34,779 nucleotides of DNA from IMG/VR virus record IMGVR_UViG_3300043449_002321, positions 1 through 34,779 of that record; one strand, given 5' to 3'. The number at the start of each line of letters is the position of its first letter. Position 1 is the first letter of the stretch. A program made the position numbers and the translations under genes. The stretch comes from a virus. The notes beneath the pieces were generated by a model. That model searched no databases. It had not been told where the DNA came from and saw only the letters and a program-made list of their open reading frames with translations. Positions 4,056 to 27,513 of the stretch are shown in pieces.

Positions 4056-4911
4056 GAGTTGCGGTTTGATCTGGAATCAGATTTCTCCTAGTCAATACTT
4101 AGCTAGATATTTGGATTACGACTTTTTTGTGGCTAGAACCAGCCCTAAGATTTACAATTTTGATGTTTTGAAAGACGGTAAAATGTATAGAAGTTACAAC
4201 TCTTCCACCCAAGAAGGAGTTGATATTTTGTTCAATGAAATTGAATTGTCATATGGAGACAACAACATTGAAAAGTTCAAGAACTTGGGGAATTTCTTAG
4301 GACGACTTGGCAATTGTCACGGCGTGATTACGAATGTGTACACAATTCCAATCCTTGGTTATGGAGTTCTTGGTGGAGGAGATGTCGAAGAGGAACAACT
4401 AAGACCTCTTGGTTCTCCTGCTACACTCACACCAATTTCGCTTACCTTTGGTCCCAGTCCATCTCCTTGGACAGGATCACTATCAGACATTGCGACAAAC
4501 GATGCTGGTGCAACCTATATTCGTCAAGAAATTTCTGGTGAGTTTCCGACTAACTGGGGATATGCATTTTTAGAATTTGACATTAGTCCAGTTATAAATT
4601 TAATACCGCCTTACACCATTAGAATACAAGTGTCACATAAACGAGAAGCAAATAATGGTGTTTATTTAAATTTAGACCTTTTGATAAATGGGGCCATTGT
4701 TTTTAGTAAAGCAGAAGAGGATAGCTATGAAAGCACCACTAGTTTTGTGCTAGAAGATACGGGTTTACAATTAGCGGCGGCAGGTCCGACTTACTTGGAT
4801 TCTGTGATCTTAAGACTATACATGTTTACAAACACGGGAAACCTTGATCCAAGAGCAATTCAAATTGATTATGCGACAGTATCCTTAAATGGATACGAAC
4901 AAATCACTTAA
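3982..4911 (+). CDS. two-domain protein: shared N-terminal domain plus beta-rich (tail/adhesin-like) domain
   Basis: 309 residues; start supported by TTGGAG eight bases upstream. Residues about 12-112 align with nearly all of the protein encoded at 25620-25967: both have E-K-x-K-S-C-G-[ML]-[LI]-W near the start, then P-x-x-Y, and an LF-x-[ED]-I-E segment ending in a conserved C-H pair. The remaining 195 residues are Pro/Gly/Thr/Ser-rich with alternating hydrophobics, typical of a beta-sandwich as in phage fibre, decoration or carbohydrate-binding domains. I infer a virion or adhesin role. A TATAAATA box lies just upstream. Function not recognised by family. Confidence 0.65.
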   Translation: MATNLEAMKKVSRLALMKEIVEKTKSCGLIWNQISPSQYLARYLDYDFFVARTSPKIYNFDVLKDGKMYRSYNSSTQEGVDILFNEIELSYGDNNIEKFKNLGNFLGRLGNCHGVITNVYTIPILGYGVLGGGDVEEEQLRPLGSPATLTPISLTFGPSPSPWTGSLSDIATNDAGATYIRQEISGEFPTNWGYAFLEFDISPVINLIPPYTIRIQVSHKREANNGVYLNLDLLINGAIVFSKAEEDSYESTTSFVLEDTGLQLAAAGPTYLDSVILRLYMFTNTGNLDPRAIQIDYATVSLNGYEQIT

Positions 4912-6019
4912 TTCCCAAAGTGTCGCAGAATAAGTTTCCAGCCTTGATAATCTCGTCGGCTCCCTGCAAACCCTGCAACATCCAGCGATTTTTCTTTGCT
5001 TCAAAAAATTCAATGCCATGCAAGGCACCAAACATCTCGCCAACAATTTTCGCATTAGTGTCAGTATCGCCCCCAGCATTAGCCGTCTCGATGACTGATT
5101 CAAAGCTAGACGGTTTGCGTAAGAACATGGCATAAGAAAACGGCAAAGAATCATAAACGTAGCATGATCCGCCGCCATATTCATCTGCAATAGACTGAAC
5201 ACTTCGATCAGATTTTTCTTGTTTGATCACAGACATTACTAGTTTGGTAATTCTGTCTTTGATTTGATCTTCCGTATCTGTAAGGTGAGATGCATCCCAT
5301 TGTAAGTGTTGGTAATTTTCGTTGCATTTCCAGTCGTAAGCATCGAGCAAACAGTAAGCAAATGAATTTCCCCTAAACCTTTTTGGATCAGTTTGCAGCA
5401 TGTATTGCAAGGCTAAGCAATGCAAAATTCCAGATTCTGCTGCCATCTGAGTTCGATGAGTCATAGCAGCAAAATCAATGACAGATTGGTAAAATCTAAA
5501 ATCTGGAGGCATACAATCATCAATTCTAGATGCGATCAGAGCAGCCAATGGGGCACATTTCATGGGAACCCCATTGCCTGTGCCTCTGGTTGTATTGTCA
5601 GTTTTGCCGCTGTCCCTCCACGAAACACCATCTTTAAGTCGATTGATTGCTTCAACAGTAGTGTATCCCCATCCAGCAATTGACTCTTTCATTGCCTGCA
5701 CATGAGCGTTGGCTATGCCTTCAAGAATCCGATCAAATGATTTCTCAGCTAAAGCAGAGGCGTGCCCTTGAATAATGCCATTCAAGGTGGCCATCGTCAG
5801 TTGAGTGTCATCTGTGGTTGACCCCGCAGGCATATAAGTCTTCTTGGGGTCATCGCAGCATGGATCTGCTGTGAACCACTTATGATTTACAGGATCAAGG
5901 TATTTTTCAACTCTACCAAACGTCTTTGCTATTTGCTCAGGCGTCCATGTTTCAACGGGCATACCAAGAGCATCCCCGACAGCACCGCCGACCAACATCC
6001 CAAGTACTTTGTTTCGCAT
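4904..6019 (-). CDS. ADP-ribosylglycohydrolase (DraG/ARH family)
   Basis: 371 residues. Residues 1-25 carry the family opening (GMLVGGAVGDALGMPVE). A first metal cluster is seen at residues 67-73 (STTDDTQ), a substrate-loop GNGVPMK near 145-152, an HRTQ..ES segment near 190, and the second metal cluster GGDTDTNAKIVG near residue 320. These are the residues that bind two Mg ions in the family, which removes ADP-ribose from proteins or other acceptors. It is a monocistronic minus-strand gene with its own promoter (6050-6079) and converges on the 3982 gene with an 8-base overlap. It may reverse host ADP-ribosylation-based defence or regulate a phage ADP-ribosylation step (inference). Confidence 0.9.
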   Translation of the reverse strand: MRNKVLGMLVGGAVGDALGMPVETWTPEQIAKTFGRVEKYLDPVNHKWFTADPCCDDPKKTYMPAGSTTDDTQLTMATLNGIIQGHASALAEKSFDRILEGIANAHVQAMKESIAGWGYTTVEAINRLKDGVSWRDSGKTDNTTRGTGNGVPMKCAPLAALIASRIDDCMPPDFRFYQSVIDFAAMTHRTQMAAESGILHCLALQYMLQTDPKRFRGNSFAYCLLDAYDWKCNENYQHLQWDASHLTDTEDQIKDRITKLVMSVIKQEKSDRSVQSIADEYGGGSCYVYDSLPFSYAMFLRKPSSFESVIETANAGGDTDTNAKIVGEMFGALHGIEFFEAKKNRWMLQGLQGADEIIKAGNLFCDTLGIK

Positions 6020-9748: not shown

Positions 9749-9967
9749 TTAGAAGCCTTCATTTTTCCAAGAAACAGGCTCGATCTTTTCACTGGCCTTT
9801 TTCTTATTATACTCCGTAATTGCTTCTGAAATGGCTTGATTACGCACATATCTTTCTTCTCTACGTCTAAAAAATTCTCTTTTAAGCATTATATTTTTCA
9901 CACAATCTGCAAGGTAAATGCAGACAGTAATCGACACAAAAAACACCACCAAATAAAACATAAGCAC
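9749..9967 (-). CDS. small membrane protein with C-terminal WxxEGF tag
   Basis: 72 residues. One hydrophobic helix (about residues 2-23) is followed by a basic, strongly charged cytoplasmic-type tail, and the protein ends in SWKNEGF. By the positive-inside rule the tail should face the cytoplasm. Its start touches the stop of the kinase/phosphatase gene (shared base 9967), so it is the last gene of the long minus-strand unit. It is the only one of the five tagged proteins with a membrane helix, which would place the tag at the inner membrane surface. Confidence 0.7.
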   Translation of the reverse strand: MLMFYLVVFFVSITVCIYLADCVKNIMLKREFFRRREERYVRNQAISEAITEYNKKKASEKIEPVSWKNEGF

Positions 9968-10944
9968 TACTTAAAAAAATGATCTGGGTGGAAATATTTA
10001 AAACCACATCGCTCAGCGAATGTCTTATCGCTTGTAGCATCCCCAACCATAATACTTTGACTAGGATCAAGTTTATATTTCTCTATCCAGTAAGCACCCA
10101 TGCCGGGTGCTGGTTTGCGACAGTAACAGGACACAGGAGGCACTCTGTGAGGACAATAAAGGTATTCAACTTTGATACCCAATTGCTTAATTGTCTCTTC
10201 AAAACAAGCGATACAATCAGCCTCTGACAAACCTTTTGCTATGGCCGACTGATTTGAAGCCCCAAGAAGCAAATACCCCTGTTTAGAATAAGCCTTCAGA
10301 ATATCCGTTCTGTTTGGTAAGACTTTGACATGTTCAGGTTTTTCTGGCCATTCATTGGGTCCAATACTACGACGTAACGTGTCGTCGAAATCAAGAATCA
10401 AAGCCTTGTTTTTGTATTCTGATGGCCACTTTCTAACAAATGGAACTTCCTCGATGCTCGAAAAGCCTTCGGCAAGGGTTGGTGTTTGTTTCCCTTTGTG
10501 CTTAAGAGTTTTGTCATCACCCTCAAACTTTTTCCTAGCTCCATACAATGCAATAGGAGGAAAAACATTGGGGTCTTTGCTTTTCTTAAGTTCCTCAGGA
10601 CTTAGAATCTTGCCAGTCTTTTGCACCATGCGAAGACAGGCATTGAATTGAGCATCTTCGAAAGATGTTTTGAGCCAAACACACCTGATTGGCACATTTA
10701 ACTCTTTTGCCAAAGCTATTATGGACTCTCGGCTTTCGATTGTAATGTAGGTGTTATCTAATACAATTCTATTTGCCCCAGACTTAAATGCTTGACGGGC
10801 AAGAACTGCCTGCCCGTCTAAAGATCCACCAGTAGTGTCTCGATTTATTCGGTGATATCCTTGAGCGACGAAATCATTAACGAGAGTTGATTTTCCCGCA
10901 GCCAAGTATCCCATCACCAATACGATTTCACTTTCACTATTCAT
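9967..10944 (-). CDS. polynucleotide kinase / HAD phosphatase fusion (Pnkp-like)
   Basis: 325 residues, near T4 Pnkp (301) and in the same order: kinase first, phosphatase second. The kinase P-loop is GYLAAGKST (12-20) with an NRD segment near residue 35. The HAD domain has DFDDT (185-189, nucleophile Asp185 and Asp187), Ser230 in LGASNQS, Lys277 in CRKP and GDATSD (301-306). Between them is a C-x-H...C-x-C zinc loop (Cys264, His266, Cys273, Cys275) typical of GmhB/HisB-type phosphatases rather than T4 Pnkp. Likely role is healing broken DNA or RNA ends (5' phosphorylation, 3' dephosphorylation), but a sugar or small-molecule substrate for the HAD half is possible. Confidence 0.78.
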   Translation of the reverse strand: MNSESEIVLVMGYLAAGKSTLVNDFVAQGYHRINRDTTGGSLDGQAVLARQAFKSGANRIVLDNTYITIESRESIIALAKELNVPIRCVWLKTSFEDAQFNACLRMVQKTGKILSPEELKKSKDPNVFPPIALYGARKKFEGDDKTLKHKGKQTPTLAEGFSSIEEVPFVRKWPSEYKNKALILDFDDTLRRSIGPNEWPEKPEHVKVLPNRTDILKAYSKQGYLLLGASNQSAIAKGLSEADCIACFEETIKQLGIKVEYLYCPHRVPPVSCYCRKPAPGMGAYWIEKYKLDPSQSIMVGDATSDKTFAERCGFKYFHPDHFFK

Positions 10945-10955
10945 TTATCAATATC

Positions 10956-11510
10956 CTAAGCTGTGACTGTCTCGTTCTTCTTCCGACGAACCCTGTGATC
11001 TTCAACCGTTGTCTTTTTGGTCAACAGTCTTGCAAAATGAGTCAAAGATGCTTCAGCAGCTTCTTGCATTCGATTGGCCCGAGGATGGCTTTGCAGGACG
11101 TATTTCTCTTGGTGTTTGATTTTAATCTTACCTTTTTTTGTGCGTCTAGCAATGCATAAAAAAATCAAACCATCTTTCTCTTTAGGGGCATCAGGCCCTA
11201 AATGACCAACAATTCCCAGAGACCAATCAGCTTCAGGCGTTCGACTCAAAATGCCAAGTGCAATTTGTTCAGCGACTTCATGACTCTCTGGAGTAAATTT
11301 ATTGATCACAGATTTTTTCACCCCAAGCCATCTTCGCTTGGAGTCTGCACGATAAACCACAGCAGAACCACATAAGAAATTACTTATACCCGGTATTTTC
11401 CCTAACTGAGACGCCACCATCCCGCAGGTGCAACTTTCTGCCAAAACAAGTTTTTCTGAACGCTCTGATAGTAGACTTGCGACTTCCTGACTGATGCTCT
11501 GCAACGTCAT
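10956..11510 (-). CDS. pncC: CinA C-terminal domain protein, nicotinamide-nucleotide amidase (PncC)
   Basis: 184 residues, stand-alone CinA amidase domain. The signature LAESCTCGM (about 23-31; usual form ESCTGG, here the first Gly is Cys) is followed by PGISNFLCGSAVVY, the KRRWLGV segment and a GIVGHLGPDAP loop where the family has GxAGPxG. The enzyme deamidates nicotinamide mononucleotide to nicotinate mononucleotide in NAD salvage. GGGAG lies six bases before ATG 11510. A basic C-terminal extension (KKTTVEDHRVRRKKNE) follows the domain. The altered GPxG loop leaves activity slightly uncertain. Confidence 0.85.
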   Translation of the reverse strand: MTLQSISQEVASLLSERSEKLVLAESCTCGMVASQLGKIPGISNFLCGSAVVYRADSKRRWLGVKKSVINKFTPESHEVAEQIALGILSRTPEADWSLGIVGHLGPDAPKEKDGLIFLCIARRTKKGKIKIKHQEKYVLQSHPRANRMQEAAEASLTHFARLLTKKTTVEDHRVRRKKNETVTA

Positions 11511-12093: not shown

Positions 12094-12699
12094 TTAACTA
12101 CGAATCGAGACGCCTACACGACGAAATGTCAAGGTTTCGACCAATTGTCGTTCTGCATGGTAGATAGCAATGTTTGAGTGCTGCGGCAAATTTAGGGCAG
12201 AAATAATGTCTTCATCGGTTAAAATCATCTCAAGGCCAAGTTGAAAGAAACAATCAATCAGGAAATTGTAACTCTTTTGGTAAGCCCCTAAATAAGTCTT
12301 TTCTGAATTGCCAGCAACATTCAAAATTCGAATTTTGTTTTCAGCAATCCAAGCAACAACATCTTTAACTGAAGGAGGGTCAGTCAAATCCACATCTATG
12401 TAGGGTTTCCCATTTTTTCGAATTGCTCGAAGTGTACAAGCTTCACCAGCAGAGCCAAAGTTTCCAGCCAATCTTATAGTTCCGTCACTATCTGCCACGT
12501 TTGCTTCAGTTCGTGGTCCATAATCACAATTAGTATGTTCTTTACAAGAATAAAGCCTTCCCATGTCGGGTCGTAGGCCATCAAGAGTTTTAAAACCTTT
12601 GGGCATCCAGCCACCAGTTTGCAGCCCAAACTTTTTTGCTGCGGCCAACCCGGCTTGATCTGCACCTGTTTGTCCACCAGATATGATCTTGCTTAACAT
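12094..12699 (-). CDS. circularly permuted YpsA-like (SLOG superfamily, 'putative molybdenum carrier') protein
   Basis: 201 residues. Residues 1-145 match the cpYpsA family as I remember it: I-S-G-G-Q-T-G-A-D-Q at residues 6-15, GGWMPKGFKTLDG, P..G..Y, an RTEANV segment, DSDGTIRL, and L-N-V-A-G-N-S-E. SLOG proteins bind nucleotide-derived ligands, and some act in NAD-linked signalling or defence. A C-terminal extension of about 55 residues is outside the core. Its start overlaps the stop of the GNAT gene by seven bases and has GGAGAG upstream. Family confident, function unproven. Confidence 0.75.
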   Translation of the reverse strand: MLSKIISGGQTGADQAGLAAAKKFGLQTGGWMPKGFKTLDGLRPDMGRLYSCKEHTNCDYGPRTEANVADSDGTIRLAGNFGSAGEACTLRAIRKNGKPYIDVDLTDPPSVKDVVAWIAENKIRILNVAGNSEKTYLGAYQKSYNFLIDCFFQLGLEMILTDEDIISALNLPQHSNIAIYHAERQLVETLTFRRVGVSIRS

Positions 12700-15165: not shown

Positions 15166-16095
15166 TTAGGCAGTTAAAGCTTTTCTAATAAGAGCCATTC
15201 TTAAATATAAGCCATTTCTTACCTGTGCCCAAATTTTGTTTTGTCTTTCATTATCAAACATTTCAGGCAATTCTTCTCGTCTTGGACCGGGATTCAAAAC
15301 TATACAGTTTCTATTCATTTGACTCCAAGTAGCTTCATCTAAAACAAATGGCTTGAAATCTTTGTCATCCCAGCGTTCCTTTTGAATGCGATTCGTATAC
15401 AGAACATCGAAACTTGAAAGGCGTTCCATAAATTCAGCCTTGGTAGCAACCCCCTGTATGTTCAATTGTTCACCCTTAATCGCAGGCGAAAAATTTTGCT
15501 CTGTAGAATCGTAAAAAGTAAATTCATTTTTTGATCCACGACCCATAAGCTCAACAAAAGAATGAATCGTTCTGCTTTTAGCCATATCACCAACGATTCC
15601 TATCTTTAAATTATCAACAATTGGATTTGGGGTTCGATAATTACGCCAAATCGTGTAAGCGTCTAACAAAGCTTGGGATGGATGATTCCAAGTACCATCT
15701 CCTGCATTAATTATAGGTCCACGCAAATATCGATTATCTTGATCTAACCATTTTTGTATGGGTTCACTAGATCTGACTACAAGAATTTCCGCATAGGTAG
15801 AAACAACTCTAATAGTATCAGAAATTGTTTCTCCTTTGGATGTTGAAGATGCTTCTGGGCCACTGACTGAGATATACTTCCCTCCCAATCTGAGCATGGC
15901 GGATTCAAATGATAATCTCGTTCTGGTTGAGGGTTCAAAAAATAAGGTTGCTAGGATTTTGCCCTCGCAACCTGAATTCCAATTAGCGTTCAAGCCTTCT
16001 CTTTTTGCTTGATCTACTTGTCTAATGGCATTGGCGTCCTGAAAAATGCTCAAAATCTGAGAATCTGACACATCGTTGCAGGTCAGTAAATCCAT
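15166..16095 (-). CDS. pyrB: aspartate carbamoyltransferase catalytic chain
   Basis: 309 residues, normal length. The enzyme joins carbamoyl phosphate and aspartate, the committed step of pyrimidine synthesis. Visible: FEPSTRTRLSFE (STRTR at 56-60 binds carbamoyl phosphate), the 80s loop SSTSKGE with Lys88, Arg108, NHPSQ (His138, Gln141), GDMAKSR (169-175), TNRIQKERW (234-242) and NPGPRREEL (268-276; the usual HPLPR is NPGPR). The last motif change is the only deviation seen. Good ribosome site (GGAGAG). No regulatory chain (PyrI) is present. It may boost pyrimidine supply for phage DNA. Confidence 0.92.
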   Translation of the reverse strand: MDLLTCNDVSDSQILSIFQDANAIRQVDQAKREGLNANWNSGCEGKILATLFFEPSTRTRLSFESAMLRLGGKYISVSGPEASSTSKGETISDTIRVVSTYAEILVVRSSEPIQKWLDQDNRYLRGPIINAGDGTWNHPSQALLDAYTIWRNYRTPNPIVDNLKIGIVGDMAKSRTIHSFVELMGRGSKNEFTFYDSTEQNFSPAIKGEQLNIQGVATKAEFMERLSSFDVLYTNRIQKERWDDKDFKPFVLDEATWSQMNRNCIVLNPGPRREELPEMFDNERQNKIWAQVRNGLYLRMALIRKALTA

Positions 16096-17588: not shown

Positions 17589-17963
17589 TCAAGCAATTAT
17601 ACTGGGATAGTAATGATCAAATGTAATTTTCAAGAACGCTGTGTCGTTTTCAACTTTAGCTTCTAATAAACTAATATTCGTTAAAATAACAGACTTTATG
17701 AGCTTGCTTTCTTTATAAATCCACATCATACCATCGGCATAAGTTCTATACGAAGATGAGGTGAATGGAATATGTCCTTTTGTGTATTGCAAAAAATAAC
17801 TATCAGTAGATTTTAACAATATGCCGTTATCGTCTGCCGTAACAACATCTACAGAGCAAGTCTTAATCTTTCCTATTAGTTCAAAGACAAATTTACTACT
17901 TCTCTTATGTTTATATTTTTGTATCCAATAATTTTTTCTCAAATCGACCATCAATTTTTCCAT
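17589..17963 (-). CDS. hypothetical protein
   Basis: 124 residues, not recognised. Basic N-terminus (KNYWIQKYKHKRSSK), then predicted beta strands. Its start overlaps the 3' end of the DNA polymerase gene by 13 bases, so translation may be coupled. An internal in-frame ATG at 17951 is an alternative start. It could be a polymerase accessory factor by position only. Confidence 0.6.
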   Translation of the reverse strand: MEKLMVDLRKNYWIQKYKHKRSSKFVFELIGKIKTCSVDVVTADDNGILLKSTDSYFLQYTKGHIPFTSSSYRTYADGMMWIYKESKLIKSVILTNISLLEAKVENDTAFLKITFDHYYPSIIA

Positions 17964-19276
17964 AACACTTTCATTTGATCAAGCTTAGCACCAAACTTGA
18001 TTTCAACTTTCATTTTCAAACCTGTGCAAAGTTTGGATTCCGCTTCGCAAACTCGCTTGACTAGCTTATAAGTTTCATGAGCGGCCTTCACTTGACAAAC
18101 CATGCCAAAGCCGTCGTGTACGCTAAAGGCCAAATAAGCTTTATACTGCTCTTCTAAAGTATTCAATGCGGTAAATAAATCAATTAACTTTTCTTGACAA
18201 ACTGTTGCTGCAACTCCTTGCACTGAAAAGTTTCTTGCCAAGTACGATTCGTTCTCTCCAAATGATCTTGGCCTGCCAAAAAAGTCCACAATTTGACCAG
18301 CCTTTGCCTCGTCTTGTTTGGCCTGCATCCAATCCCAAGCAGTATGGAATTGTTTTTTGATACGATTAATCAATTCAGAAGCGACCTCGGAACTGACTCC
18401 AATATTATGAGCCAGTCCAGAACTTCCACAGCCATACATTACAGGTAAAAACATTTTCTTTGACAACTTACGTTTATTTTCAGTATCGCATTTATCACCA
18501 GTCACAACCTCATAAATCTCATTGTGAAGATCGGCACCCGAGTTAAGGATCTCCAATAATTTTTGATCGTTTGAGAGCCATTGCAAGACTGTTACTTCGC
18601 AGTGTCTAAAGTCTGAACATAAAAATCTTACGCCATAACCACGAGGCTTCAGAGCGGATTTTACGTCTGGCCCCATGTTGTGGGGTAAATAGCTTTTGGA
18701 AAATTTTCGAAGACAATTCATGCGACCGTTGATTTGTCCCTCAATTTCGTAATAGGGAAATTCGGTACGCTTTGTCTCCTCGTTCAGGAGGGGGTAAGTT
18801 TCAATTGCAGGTAGGACTCTCAAGGCGAGAGGTAAATGGATGGATTTGTAAATCGATTGCCAAGATTTATTCTTAACAACCAACTTCACTCTATTTACGG
18901 CCTCAACCAAATTTTGAGGTTGATTTTTCCTGATATTCAAAAAATTCTCAATGATTTTTAAGTCAATGAGGCTGGTAGTTGGCGTAATGAATCTTTTTGA
19001 AATGGAATGAAAATAGGAACATAAAGTCTTAAAATTCCAAGTATAAACTCGATCACATTTTTCTTTGTCAAAGATTGTTGCGTCAAAAATTCCGATCAAA
19101 TGAATAATCTGTTCAGGCGAAACTTCAATTTCAACAATTTGATTTTGTCCGTGGACATGAATGGAAAAAGGAGAAAGAACCGTGAAATCAGGAATTTCAG
19201 GTTCAAACTTAAGATAAACAGCTTTGTTTGTTTCCAACAAATCTGTCAATTGCCACGAAACATCATAAAGATTCAT
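17951..19276 (-). CDS. polA: family A DNA polymerase, small (polymerase plus degenerate exonuclease-like region)
   Basis: 441 residues against about 930 for E. coli Pol I; no 5' nuclease domain. Residues 1-180 weakly resemble the 3'-5' exonuclease fold (VYTWNFKTL, SLIDLKII), but intact catalytic acids are not evident. The palm and fingers are clear: INGRMNC (182-188), motif A SDFRHCEV (221-228, Asp222), motif B R269..K273..L277..Y281, NFSVQGVAA (349-357) and motif C SVHDG (385-389, Asp388). Leu277 occupies the E. coli Phe762 position. The Glu usually following the HD of motif C is Gly. Probably the replicative polymerase; start at ATG 19276 lacks a strong ribosome site. Confidence 0.88.
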   Translation of the reverse strand: MNLYDVSWQLTDLLETNKAVYLKFEPEIPDFTVLSPFSIHVHGQNQIVEIEVSPEQIIHLIGIFDATIFDKEKCDRVYTWNFKTLCSYFHSISKRFITPTTSLIDLKIIENFLNIRKNQPQNLVEAVNRVKLVVKNKSWQSIYKSIHLPLALRVLPAIETYPLLNEETKRTEFPYYEIEGQINGRMNCLRKFSKSYLPHNMGPDVKSALKPRGYGVRFLCSDFRHCEVTVLQWLSNDQKLLEILNSGADLHNEIYEVVTGDKCDTENKRKLSKKMFLPVMYGCGSSGLAHNIGVSSEVASELINRIKKQFHTAWDWMQAKQDEAKAGQIVDFFGRPRSFGENESYLARNFSVQGVAATVCQEKLIDLFTALNTLEEQYKAYLAFSVHDGFGMVCQVKAAHETYKLVKRVCEAESKLCTGLKMKVEIKFGAKLDQMKVLWKN

Positions 19277-19371
19277 AGCACAATTCTACCACAAAACTCA
19301 ATCAAAAGGAAAGAGTAAATTTTATCTTAATTGCTTGTCTAAAACAAGTGCAATACGGGGGCCTTGGTTGT

Positions 19372-19809
19372 GATTATAGTAGGAAAAAATAAAAGCAACT
19401 TTTAAGTTCCTAAAGATTTAGGGCAAAAAGTTGCCAGACCTTTTCCGGGCCAATGGGGCGATCCTAAAAATCACCACACGGCACTACTATGACCGCAATT
19501 CCGGCGGGCAGTTTTACAGCAATTTTCTTGTACTTTCGCTTACTAACCAGTACTCCTGCCTAACCCCCACCCAGTTGCGTATAGCATTTAGGCACTCAAG
19601 GCATTCGGTGGGTTTTAGAGTAGTGGCTTACCTCAGCCCAAGGAGGAAGGCTCAAAGTGTCCGTTAACACTTGCCCGGTTCCGGTAAGACTCACCCGGCT
19701 CCTATGGTTTTTGCCACTGGTTCCCTAGGCAATTGCTTTAGCCTAAAGCTCTCCAGTGAGGGATTTGGTCCCCATCCAAGTAATTTTTCTGTGTCTATTC
19801 ACTATAGTC
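19372..19809 (+). ncRNA. large structured non-coding RNA (~440 nt), class unknown
   Basis: No credible gene fits the 575-base gap. It folds by eye into fully nested helices: closing stem 19372-19380/19801-19809 (9 bp with one U.G); 19395-19403/19426-19434 (9 bp) capped by 19409-19413/19418-19422; long-range 19482-19488/19619-19625 (7 bp) enclosing 19506-19511/19556-19561 with 19530-19534/19549-19553 inside, and 19566-19571/19607-19612; then 19655-19660/19667-19672, 19715-19720/19753-19758 with 19726-19730/19741-19745, and 19760-19763/19769-19772. G.U pairs favour the plus strand. It is richer in G+C than its surroundings. I do not see hallmarks of tmRNA, RNase P or group I/II introns. GOLLD- or ROOL-like phage RNAs are the comparison to test. 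Confidence 0.6.
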
Positions 19810-19851
19810 GATTCTTTCCTTAAAAGCAATATCTTTTAATGGAGTTTCTTA

Positions 19852-20001
19852 ATGAAAAGCTTGCCGTTTAGATTAAGGGTAAAAAATTTTCCTTTAGTTT
19901 TTAGTAGTCTTTTCCGATCATTAAGACTAAGATTTGAAATGGCCCTATTACGGTTACATATCGGGGGCCAAGTCATTGAGGTGAAATTTGGAGAGCCGTA
20001 A
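19852..20001 (+). CDS. small basic protein (49 aa)
   Basis: A 49-codon frame with GGAG about eight bases before ATG 19852. The first half is rich in Arg, Phe, Leu and Ser (possible amphipathic or membrane-associated helix); the second half ends IGGQVIEVKFGEP. It overlaps the next gene by 14 bases and begins 43 bases after the structured RNA, so it may be translated from the same transcript. Not recognised. Support comes from ribosome site and gene packing only. Confidence 0.45.
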   Translation: MKSLPFRLRVKNFPLVFSSLFRSLRLRFEMALLRLHIGGQVIEVKFGEP

Positions 20002-20713
20002 ATTGGGACTAGAAACCATCCTTGAATACAACATGACTGTGGAAGAAGGTGAAGTATTCCATATCGCTCTTGTGTATGAACAAGAGTACAGACGGTTGTT
20101 TGCAGATGAACTGGATGGACAATCGGTAAGGCGAAATTCACTACCCTTAAGGAGTGACCCAAGAAAATCTAGTCTATTCAGATATTGTTGGAAATTACGT
20201 CGTGAAACTCGTGGTTTGCTTGAACAAACTGAGTACAAGAATTATATCCGTGCAAATTTATTCATCATCAAAGCCAACCGAGGTCACGTTGAGCCAAATT
20301 GCGTTACTGGTGATAAGGCATGGATAAGATACAAAGTCTGGAAAAGACGTTACGATCAAAAAATTGCTGAAGTCAGCAGCCAAGCACCGCCGCCATCTGT
20401 AGGAAATACAAGTCCAAAAATCATCGCCGAAATTGATAAGAATCGAAAATTTCTATTTGAAAAATGCGACGGCCAACCAACTTTCGAGAAAATCTTACAT
20501 TTTATTGATCTTGGCGTATTTCGTTTGTGGGTTGCAACAAACAAGATTTCCCCTTATTATCTATCTTTGTCGCCAATCATAGAGAAAACCAAACGCAAAT
20601 CTGAATTATTTTCAGTTTGCACTTCAAGTGAATCTCTGATAAAAGAAAAAATTACTGAGGAAATCAAGGATTATTTCCGACATGAGTATGGATACGAATT
20701 CATTTCCAATTGA
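19988..20713 (+). CDS. hypothetical protein
   Basis: 241 residues if started at TTG 19988, which has GAGGTG just upstream; ATG 20033 is an alternative that gives 226 residues and has no clear ribosome site. Rich in charged and aromatic residues: an Arg-rich stretch (SLFRYCWKLRRETR) and a basic YKVWKRRYDQK segment could bind nucleic acid. No family recognised. It is first of a four-gene plus-strand run (to 22081) and overlaps its successor by 32 bases. Confidence 0.6.
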   Translation: MESRKLGLETILEYNMTVEEGEVFHIALVYEQEYRRLFADELDGQSVRRNSLPLRSDPRKSSLFRYCWKLRRETRGLLEQTEYKNYIRANLFIIKANRGHVEPNCVTGDKAWIRYKVWKRRYDQKIAEVSSQAPPPSVGNTSPKIIAEIDKNRKFLFEKCDGQPTFEKILHFIDLGVFRLWVATNKISPYYLSLSPIIEKTKRKSELFSVCTSSESLIKEKITEEIKDYFRHEYGYEFISN

Positions 20714-23981: not shown

Positions 23982-24081
23982 TTTCTGTTGTGAACTAGAA
24001 ATTATGTTTTGTCGAACATGAACTATGATTTCAATTAGTGCTGGTTACCGACATGAGTCGGGCAAAGCAAGGTAGGTAAAA

Positions 24082-24636
24082 ATGGCAAAAACAGAAAAAC
24101 TTGAGTTTGATAAGTTCTCAGTCGTTATTGACCCTGAGAATCTTAGATTTGATGAATCGTCGTTAAGCTACTACATTCAGACTGAAGGTGGTTATTACGA
24201 CAATTTCGGCAACTATTTAGCTCTGGCCGAAAGAAACCTTCAAAATAAAGAGAATATGCATGAGCGTCTCTTTTGTGAGCGTTTCGCAGAGGCTAAAGAG
24301 TTGGGTGCAAGCGATAAACTCGCTGAAGCTAAGGCTAAGTGTGATGTTGACGTAGTCGCTTTGAAGGACGATATTGTACAAGCTCGTTTCGTGGTAAATC
24401 GTCTCAAGAACCACATTAAAGCGTGGGACAAAAACCATGACAATGCTCAGAGCATGGGACACATGCTGCGTAAGCAGATGGATCGACTCAATGCTGACAT
24501 TATGGGCTCACATGGATGGCAAGGATCAACTCTTGATCAGGATGTATCAAAAGCAGTTGGGTCGTTCGATGCAAAGCCATCAGAACAAGCATCCTCTGGA
24601 TTTGATAGTGGGTTAGGCATAGAAGGCTTGATCTAA
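24082..24636 (+). CDS. UvsY-like recombination mediator candidate
   Basis: 184 residues, largely helical. Residues about 10-130 resemble T4 UvsY in layout: an opening V-x-I-D-x-x-x-L, a Y-x-x-x-G-x-Y helix, a long charged helix region, and R-L-K-N-H-I-K-A-W near the end (UvsY has a comparable Y-W-G-I-L-L-x-x-x-x-x-A-I-K region). UvsY loads the recombinase onto SSB-covered DNA. Context supports this: adjacent to the helicase and a repair glycosylase in a genome with RecA and gp32-like genes. Sequence resemblance is weak, so another ssDNA-binding accessory or helicase loader is possible. Its stop overlaps the next start (TAATG). Confidence 0.45.
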   Translation: MAKTEKLEFDKFSVVIDPENLRFDESSLSYYIQTEGGYYDNFGNYLALAERNLQNKENMHERLFCERFAEAKELGASDKLAEAKAKCDVDVVALKDDIVQARFVVNRLKNHIKAWDKNHDNAQSMGHMLRKQMDRLNADIMGSHGWQGSTLDQDVSKAVGSFDAKPSEQASSGFDSGLGIEGLI

Positions 24637-25247
24637 TGATTGATCCTGTAATAGTGACCAACTTTCAAAGAAGCTCTTCCGAACTAGAAGAGCTTCTTCT
24701 TTTTTGCATAGCAGTTGCAGGAAAAAATGCTACCAGAACTTCAGTCATGCTAGAGCAACTTTTGGAATATGGTCGGGATTATTGTCAGGGCACACCTTTT
24801 GATATAATCAAAAAATTAAATGAGGTAGCGGATCTGCCTCTTTTAATGAAAAATTTCGGCTTTGGTTGTTACACCCACAAATCCAAGGGATTTATTGAAG
24901 CGGCTTATTCAGGCTTGGATTTGGCCAAATGTACAGCAGAAGATTTGGAAAAGATTCATGGAGTAGGGATGAAAACCTCCAGATACTTCTTACTTCATAG
25001 CAGAAAAAATGCTCGTGTTGCCTGTCTAGATACTCATGTATTGAAATGGCTTGCTAGGCACAGTGGTTTGAAAGTTCCTAAGCAAAGTCCAACCAAAAAC
25101 AAGTATAGAGAATTAGAACAGGTATTTCTGAAGGTGTCTGAAGCCCTACAGATTGATCCTGCTGATCTTGATCTTAAGATCTGGAACATGAGTAGGGGAA
25201 CTGATGAAGAATCATTGGCTAAAAGTTTATCGATCCAAGAACAATAA
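24636..25247 (+). CDS. HhH-GPD DNA glycosylase/AP lyase (EndoIII/OGG-like)
   Basis: 203 residues. The helix-hairpin-helix at residues 105-115 reads KIHGVGMKTSR, with Lys113 at the position of the EndoIII catalytic lysine; the GPD aspartate is Asp132 in ACLDTHV. No 4Fe-4S cysteines follow. The family excises damaged bases, and with the lysine can also cut the strand. It sits in the helicase operon (one-base overlap with the upstream stop), fitting a base-excision or anti-damage role. A specialised role, such as removing modified bases from host DNA, cannot be excluded. Confidence 0.8.
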   Translation: MIDPVIVTNFQRSSSELEELLLFCIAVAGKNATRTSVMLEQLLEYGRDYCQGTPFDIIKKLNEVADLPLLMKNFGFGCYTHKSKGFIEAAYSGLDLAKCTAEDLEKIHGVGMKTSRYFLLHSRKNARVACLDTHVLKWLARHSGLKVPKQSPTKNKYRELEQVFLKVSEALQIDPADLDLKIWNMSRGTDEESLAKSLSIQEQ

Positions 25248-26903: not shown

Positions 26904-27051
26904 TTTTGACTCCAATTTTTTTGGTACAAATATCTATGATCCTAAATGAAATTTGATTATTGATTCATATATTATGATGAAGGTGTGGACCAGTACGGAC
27001 ACACAGCAACTGTAGCTAATTGTGGCACAGTTTAATAATTTGGAGGTCGAT

Positions 27052-27513
27052 ATGACTAGAGGACTTGTTCCTATGAGAGATGATCTTTTGTTTCCTCTCG
27101 AACAACATTTCAATAAATTCTTTGATGAATTTTTCAACAAAGAATCTTTCAATAGTGTCGGAAAAAATTCTAGTTTTCCGAAAATGAACGCCTACGAAAA
27201 AGACGGCGAATTAGTTCTTACCGTATCTGTTTCAGGTATGACGGCTGATGATTTGAGTGTCGAAGTAAGCCCTGACAATGTGCTTAAACTTCGTGGTCGC
27301 ATGTCGGAACAATATCATTCCCCAGAGGATTCCCGCCAGTATCTGCGTGAATTGAGAACATCGGCATTTGAGCGTAGTCTTCAGTTGCCCGGAAATCTCG
27401 TGGGTGATCCTAAAGCGTCAATTAAAGATGGAATTTTAACTCTGCGTTGGAAGCTTAAAGGTAAAGAGCCTTTAAAGCCGCAGAATAAGCTCATTGCCAT
27501 CACAACTGAATAA
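27052..27513 (+). CDS. small heat-shock protein (Hsp20/alpha-crystallin)
   Basis: 153 residues from ATG 27052, chosen because TTGGAGG precedes it; an in-frame GTG at 27022 is less likely. The alpha-crystallin domain spans about residues 40-135: MNAYEKDGELVLTVSVSGM, R-G-R, FERSLQLPGNL, and the signature D-G-I-L-T-L-R-W. A C-terminal I/L-x-I-type motif (LIAI) is present. ATP-independent holdase that keeps unfolding proteins soluble; phage copies occur in large T4-like genomes. It is followed by a strong terminator (27634-27671), so it is likely a single-gene unit. Confidence 0.88.
   Translation: MTRGLVPMRDDLLFPLEQHFNKFFDEFFNKESFNSVGKNSSFPKMNAYEKDGELVLTVSVSGMTADDLSVEVSPDNVLKLRGRMSEQYHSPEDSRQYLRELRTSAFERSLQLPGNLVGDPKASIKDGILTLRWKLKGKEPLKPQNKLIAITTE

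Follow-up and report, generated by a model that had tools for sequence, protein, structure and literature searches.

A conserved, pseudoknotted RNA family predicted beside the DNA polymerase gene of large phages

Few non-coding RNAs are both large and intricately folded, and the solved structures of ROOL, GOLLD and OLE have been surprising. Assembly into a homo-oligomeric RNA complex characterizes these three. ROOL and GOLLD are often found near phage tRNA islands, and RNAII of ColE1 is a replication pre-primer. ROOL (Rumen-Originating, Ornate, Large) is a large phage-encoded non-coding RNA with pseudoknots, and GOLLD is a large phage-encoded structured RNA; the function of both is unknown (PMC12286853). 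Here we analyze an IMG/VR fragment of 34,779 bases (hereafter, the window), in which an initial annotation had placed a non-coding RNA, large, structured and ~440 nt long, between a DNA polymerase gene and an operon of unknown function. Homologues and covariation bear out this claim, and the comparison of scale with other large phage RNAs likewise stands.

The gap under study (19277-19987) is bordered by polA, encoded on the minus strand, and, on the other side, by a plus-strand gene for a protein of 241 aa (Table 1). We found no convincing protein gene in the gap, and its G+C content is 0.47 versus 0.33-0.42 nearby, in agreement with the earlier remark that it exceeds that of the flanks. The 241-aa protein matched no Pfam or PHROG family, and its AlphaFold model (pLDDT 88) had no convincing match in the PDB. 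Elsewhere, the window carries genes for an ADP-ribosylglycohydrolase (4904-6019), a polynucleotide kinase-phosphatase (9967-10944), a CinA-like protein (10956-11510), a YpsA-like SLOG protein (12094-12699), a carbamoyltransferase (15166-16095), an 8-oxoguanine glycosylase-like protein (24636-25247) and an HSP20 protein (27022-27513).

Homologues were sought by comparing the two flanking proteins with IMG/VR and reading the gap of each relative. The RNA was found in the identical gap beside PolA in 11 distinct large-phage genomes, namely, the window and ten further loci (L006, L003, L004, L005, L133, L136, L139, L131, L202 and L203); the related contigs include one of 458,813 bases. In all these loci polA lies downstream of the RNA and in the same direction. 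We claim no link between these phages and the moraphages, a lineage of large aquatic phages (PMC12619734). A covariance model of the 173-nt core, R1, built from seven homologues, matched four further members at the expected place, with E-values that are rough, as are those of R2, because the calibration was short (L202, 2e-19; L139, 2e-12; L203, 1e-11; L131, 7e-7). Beyond the 11 loci, there is a diverged pair, L208/L209. L208 scores weakly with the model (16 bits, E 0.07), but its match is located upstream of PolA and has both pseudoknot stems; an M19 peptidase gene is inserted between the match and the 241-aa gene. The RNA and polA are neighbours in each of the 11 loci as well as in L208.

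When the entire viral collection was scanned with a pattern, it returned these phages only, plus two matches, L148 and L152, judged from sequence and ORF lists to be due to chance. Two other candidates, L142 and L143, were not matched by R1. When core-motif matches in bacterial genomes were re-scored with R2, most fitted just the hairpin used for their selection; one of these candidates (L105) lies within a long ORF and two (L052 and L127) are chance-like. Two side matches of R2, at 27195-27271 of the window and at 24080 of G001, fall inside the HSP20 gene and an ORF, respectively, and were also attributed to chance. In a more distant relative, LR756511 (595 kb), and in L212, PolA adjoins the homologue of the 241-aa protein without the RNA. 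The place of the RNA in LR756511 is occupied by a 387-aa ORF (L129:3841-5004), and neither R1 nor R2 found the RNA anywhere in that 595-kb record. Elsewhere, a conserved non-coding gap (L206:3996-4447 and the same region of L207) precedes a gene for 172 aa that adjoins the homologue of the 241-aa gene. This gap contains hairpins and a plus-strand promoter (TTGAAA-N17-TATAAC); it was matched by neither R1 nor R2 and is perhaps another structured RNA.

Folding energies of the window were of little help: on the plus strand, z was -1.1, with 14 of 100 shuffles folding as well, and on the minus strand -2.3. Given the weak plus-strand value, we did not accept such z-scores as proof of a structured RNA, and for the window alone that value would suit a chance fold of a non-coding gap. 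Covariation refutes this explanation, the probability of which we consider practically nil. Nine core sequences were aligned by hand, an alignment biased towards structure because it was built by seeking complementarity. Of its 274 base-pair cells, 272 are paired; compensatory double changes are seen in 27 of its 31 pairs, and the covariation score is 0.81 versus 0.28 +/- 0.03 in 1000 shuffles. The model-made alignments give the same verdict. For R1, the score is 0.573 versus 0.243 (0/500 shuffles; slid controls 0.09-0.15). R2, with 11 minus-strand sequences, has 95.6% of its cells paired and double changes in 14 of 17 pairs, and the score is 0.653 versus 0.279 (0/500 shuffles; slid controls 0.09-0.19), within the statistical limits set by 11 sequences, some of them close kin (L004/L005), and by shuffles that do not preserve relatedness. 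The covariation exceeds every shuffle and every slid control, and the models match unseen homologues at the same place. Covariation among homologues, the absence of which the initial annotation had named as a refutation, is thus present, and the comparison indicates that the gap encodes an evolutionarily conserved, highly structured RNA, the shape of which is kept while the letters change.

The core consists of a three-way junction and a pseudoknot domain (Table 1). The pseudoknot is found in 12 of 12 sequences, that is, the nine aligned cores, L202, L203 and L208. The 3' domain is closed by a long-range helix with a duplex energy sum of -91.2 versus a permuted mean of -51.7, and none of 5000 permutations was as good. 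A 5' hairpin is likely: compensatory versions were read in L006 and L003, and the hairpin formed in the constrained fold. A single nested fold holds all the counted helices except one pseudoknot stem, at -136.8 kcal/mol compared with -142.2 kcal/mol without constraints. The initial annotation had listed at least ten mutually compatible helices; a structured RNA was indeed found, but the three-way junction and the pseudoknot were not among the helices named, and the one containing the pair 19506.19561 clashes with a conserved pseudoknot stem (19558-19563/19588-19593). The U-rich tract that follows a hairpin in the 3' part was read in most homologues. This tract and the GGCAAAAACC tract at 19706-19715 are both kept in most homologues, on the minus strand, and could pair or form a U.A-U triple helix.

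Table 1. Coordinates, strand and support of the predicted RNA, its helices and adjoining genes in the window, and of RNase P-like RNAs in related contigs.
Feature	Extent	Strand	Support or remark
PolA-type (family A) DNA polymerase	17951-19276	-	PF00476, E 5e-29; homologues
Structured RNA, whole, ~446 nt (also given as ~440 nt)	19350-19795	-	same-gap homologues, promoter position, outermost helices
RNA promoter: -35 TTGCTT (19824-19829), 17-nt spacer, -10 TATAGT (19801-19806)	19801-19829	-	
241-aa protein gene, conserved, predicted all-helical	19988-20713	+	divergent from RNA
P1 outer helix 19357-19361/19770-19773 (tentative)	19357-19773	-	several homologues by eye; constrained fold; no formal count
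5' hairpin 19715-19720/19753-19758, inner stem 19726-19730/19741-19745 (likely)	19715-19758	-	no formal count
Three-way junction, stem 19641-19645/19699-19703	19641-19703	-	R2 covariation
Three-way junction, hairpin 19681-19684/19695-19698	19641-19703	-	R2 covariation
Three-way junction, hairpin 19649-19651/19673-19675 extended by 19655-19659/19668-19672		-	R2 covariation
Pseudoknot domain, closing stem 19547-19555/19618-19626	19547-19626	-	
Knot stems 19558-19563/19588-19593 and 19567-19571/19607-19611	19547-19626	-	fully paired 9/9
Long-range helix 19368-19382/19484-19498, closing 3' domain	19368-19498	-	duplex energies
Hairpin 19395-19403/19426-19434, then U-rich tract 19384-19394	19384-19434	-	terminator-like, yet inside RNA
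RNase P-like RNA	L140:1501-1742	+	RF00010, 67 bits (cut-off 100)
RNase P-like RNA	L141:1501-1757	-	RF00010, 52 bits (cut-off 100)
RNase P-like RNA	L217:1501-1733	-	RF00010, 63 bits (cut-off 100)

The strand of the RNA differs from that initially proposed. In all 11 loci, the minus strand carries a sigma70-type pattern, TTG-N20-TANNNT, between +71 and +139 relative to the end of the core, with 0-2 matches in other 40-nt bins; L202 and L203 were not among the loci in which the pattern was noticed, and both carry it. The initial annotation had closed the RNA with a 9-bp helix, 19372-19380/19801-19809. These segments are complementary in the window, but we reject the helix because its 3' arm is the conserved -10 box of the minus-strand promoter; the covarying partner of its 5' arm, part of 19368-19382, is instead 19484-19498 (0/5000 permutations). 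The location of the -10 box in that arm, together with the promoters at 11/11 loci, indicates that the RNA lies on the minus strand, with a predicted 5' end near 19795 and a predicted 3' end near 19350. Furthermore, in 9 of 9 homologues the z-score of the minus strand is below that of the plus strand (means -2.70 and -1.67, respectively), and in the unpaired part of the core A and G are more frequent on the minus strand than on the other. The R2 junction alignment of diverged members on the minus strand holds 8 G.U pairs versus 1 A.C, a count that is supportive only because the model was built for that strand. A plus-strand transcript, which had been argued for on the basis of G.U pairs at 19374.19807 and 19506.19561, is rejected by the promoter, the z-scores, the loop composition and the G.U/A.C counts. 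Similarly, GATTATAGT...ACTATAGTC was dismissed as a terminal inverted repeat or MITE: it is present in a single copy, and its 3' arm is the -10 box.

These observations also bear on the idea that the locus acts as DNA, for example as an origin or packaging structure, with the strands folding as such and no functional transcript. Almost all core pairs in the hand alignment are Watson-Crick, and a skew minimum lies at the locus in several genomes (see below), as a DNA element would permit. Against it stand the promoter, which has a constant orientation at the 5' end of the RNA in 11/11 loci, the excess of G.U over A.C in diverged members (8 to 1) and the strand-biased loop composition, and we consider this explanation very improbable.

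Could the RNA act in cis as the leader of the polA mRNA, in the way of a riboswitch or an attenuator, with transcription from the RNA promoter continuing into polA? Its invariable position directly upstream of polA and in the same direction, as well as the hairpin and U-rich tract preceding the gene, are compatible with such a role. However, 9 of 11 loci, against 3.0 expected by chance, have a TANNNT box ahead of the polA ATG, at a distance of 6 or 9 nt (exactly 6 nt for seven of them), and no Shine-Dalgarno-like sequence precedes the ATG in these nine. Hence, polA likely has a leaderless promoter of its own, and the RNA would be a separate gene. The polA start looks leaderless in the window (19277-19295) and at the corresponding place in the homologues. 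Nor is the U-rich tract the usual end of the RNA, because the conserved long-range helix pairs across it; on the evidence of this helix, the functional RNA reaches past the tract. A leader is thus distinctly unlikely as the whole explanation, and the RNA is probably not just that.

The Rfam search proposed at the outset was run on the window and homologues, and no covariance model, including those of ROOL, GOLLD and OLE, matched at gathering or loose thresholds. The initial statement that the sequence resembles none of these three is upheld as far as Rfam models can tell, and a literature search, which was not exhaustive, found no earlier description of the RNA. By eye, a short look-alike of RNase P (CGGUAAGA...ACCCG) might suggest a very diverged member of a known family, such as RNase P, tmRNA or a group I intron. 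Yet neither strand of the window or of the homologues matched Rfam, at loose thresholds too, no RNase P model match was found at the RNA locus in either, and neither tRNA nor tmRNA was detected in the window by ARAGORN or Rfam criteria. Moreover, two relatives, G002 and G004, carry the RNA plus a separate RNase P-like RNA, the RF00010 matches lying elsewhere in these contigs, so that RNase P is excluded as the identity. We give scarcely any credence to a known family in disguise; by all comparisons made, this is a structured RNA family of large phages that is new to Rfam.

Compact RNAs resembling class A RNase P RNA, 233-257 nt long, occur in three related phage contigs (Table 1); they contain the catalytic-core motifs and lack most of the specificity domain. 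The distance from the RNA to tRNA genes is ~21 kb or more in G006, ~36 kb in G004 and >80 kb in G001. The tRNA genes at L196 (G006) and L198 (G004) are only of Ser, Leu, Tyr and Phe types.

To assess a possible link to the replication origin, we analyzed strand asymmetry. In G003, G004, G005 and G017, the cumulative GC skew reaches its minimum within ~1 kb of the RNA; in the window, analyzed at a resolution of 1.5 kb, the minimum is located at the RNA. Because genes diverging from the locus can by themselves produce a skew minimum, fourfold-degenerate sites were compared between would-be leading- and lagging-strand genes, assuming that replication starts at the RNA. The asymmetry was significant in G003, G017 and G013 (0/300 permutations each), with the best switch point at the RNA in G003 and 6-7 kb away in G017 and G013, marginal in G004 (15/300), whereas it fell short of significance in G001, G002, G005 and the window. 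In G001, the best switch point is at 290 kb and the RNA at 76 kb; in G002, the switch is not at the RNA either. As the fourfold-site results vary among contigs, the evidence for an origin is mixed.

Because a GC-skew switch lies at or near the RNA in several genomes, a role in replication is the best mechanism that we can infer; judging from the skew and from the adjacency to polA, work in phage DNA replication is the role that we favour. The reading we prefer, with a probability of roughly 0.4, is that the locus is a stand-alone minus-strand gene for a structured RNA of ~440 nt that would act in phage replication, likely at the origin. Of this reading, comparison shows the fold, in which the pseudoknot domain, the three-way junction and the long-range helix of the 3' domain are conserved, the conserved sigma70-type promoter at the 5' end and the fixed place directly upstream of co-directional PolA. 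Host RNA polymerase would transcribe the RNA, which would take the form of a compact particle, with or without protein, and might act, at an origin that the locus seems to mark, for example as an initiator RNA, a primer RNA or a scaffold. A more specific version, in which such RNAs form an origin-linked class in large phages, 440 nt long, pseudoknotted, with their own promoter at the origin and needed to start or prime replication with PolA, is rather doubtful.

Alternatively, and as a tentative possibility, the RNA could be a stand-alone, trans-acting structural RNA without a role at the origin, forming a ROOL- or GOLLD-like particle, either an RNA-only complex or an RNP, that acts on the machinery of host or phage; conserved order of core genes would by itself explain the place near PolA. 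The same structural evidence and the RNA's own promoter fit this alternative, and large phage RNAs of such scale can form RNA-only complexes (PMC12286853). However, neither the 11 loci nor L208 depart from the place beside polA, and in several genomes the RNA and the skew switch coincide, which purely trans action does not require. Under either reading, the family shows strong covariation, has a defined promoter and keeps to one position, next to the replicative polymerase gene of large phages. If the RNA does act in the initiation of replication, a large phage would thereby have a new means of starting DNA synthesis.

Among known systems, class A RNase P RNA (RF00010) is similar in size, and some of these phage contigs encode an additional, RNase P-like RNA, but the RNA described here has no RF00010 match and a different fold. 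Like ColE1 RNAII, it would be a structured transcript of several hundred nucleotides with its own sigma70 promoter, perhaps near an origin, and a PolA-type gene is adjacent here; no sequence relation is claimed, nor an RNA-DNA hybrid or priming. Nearest in kind are ROOL and GOLLD, from which it is set apart by model match, size and tRNA-island context. GOLLD is likewise a large structured phage-encoded RNA; the present RNA is about half its length, has no Rfam match and is not beside tRNAs. Although it also differs from ROOL in sequence and fold, again without an Rfam match, and adjoins polA rather than tRNAs, it resembles ROOL in being a large, phage-encoded, pseudoknotted RNA.
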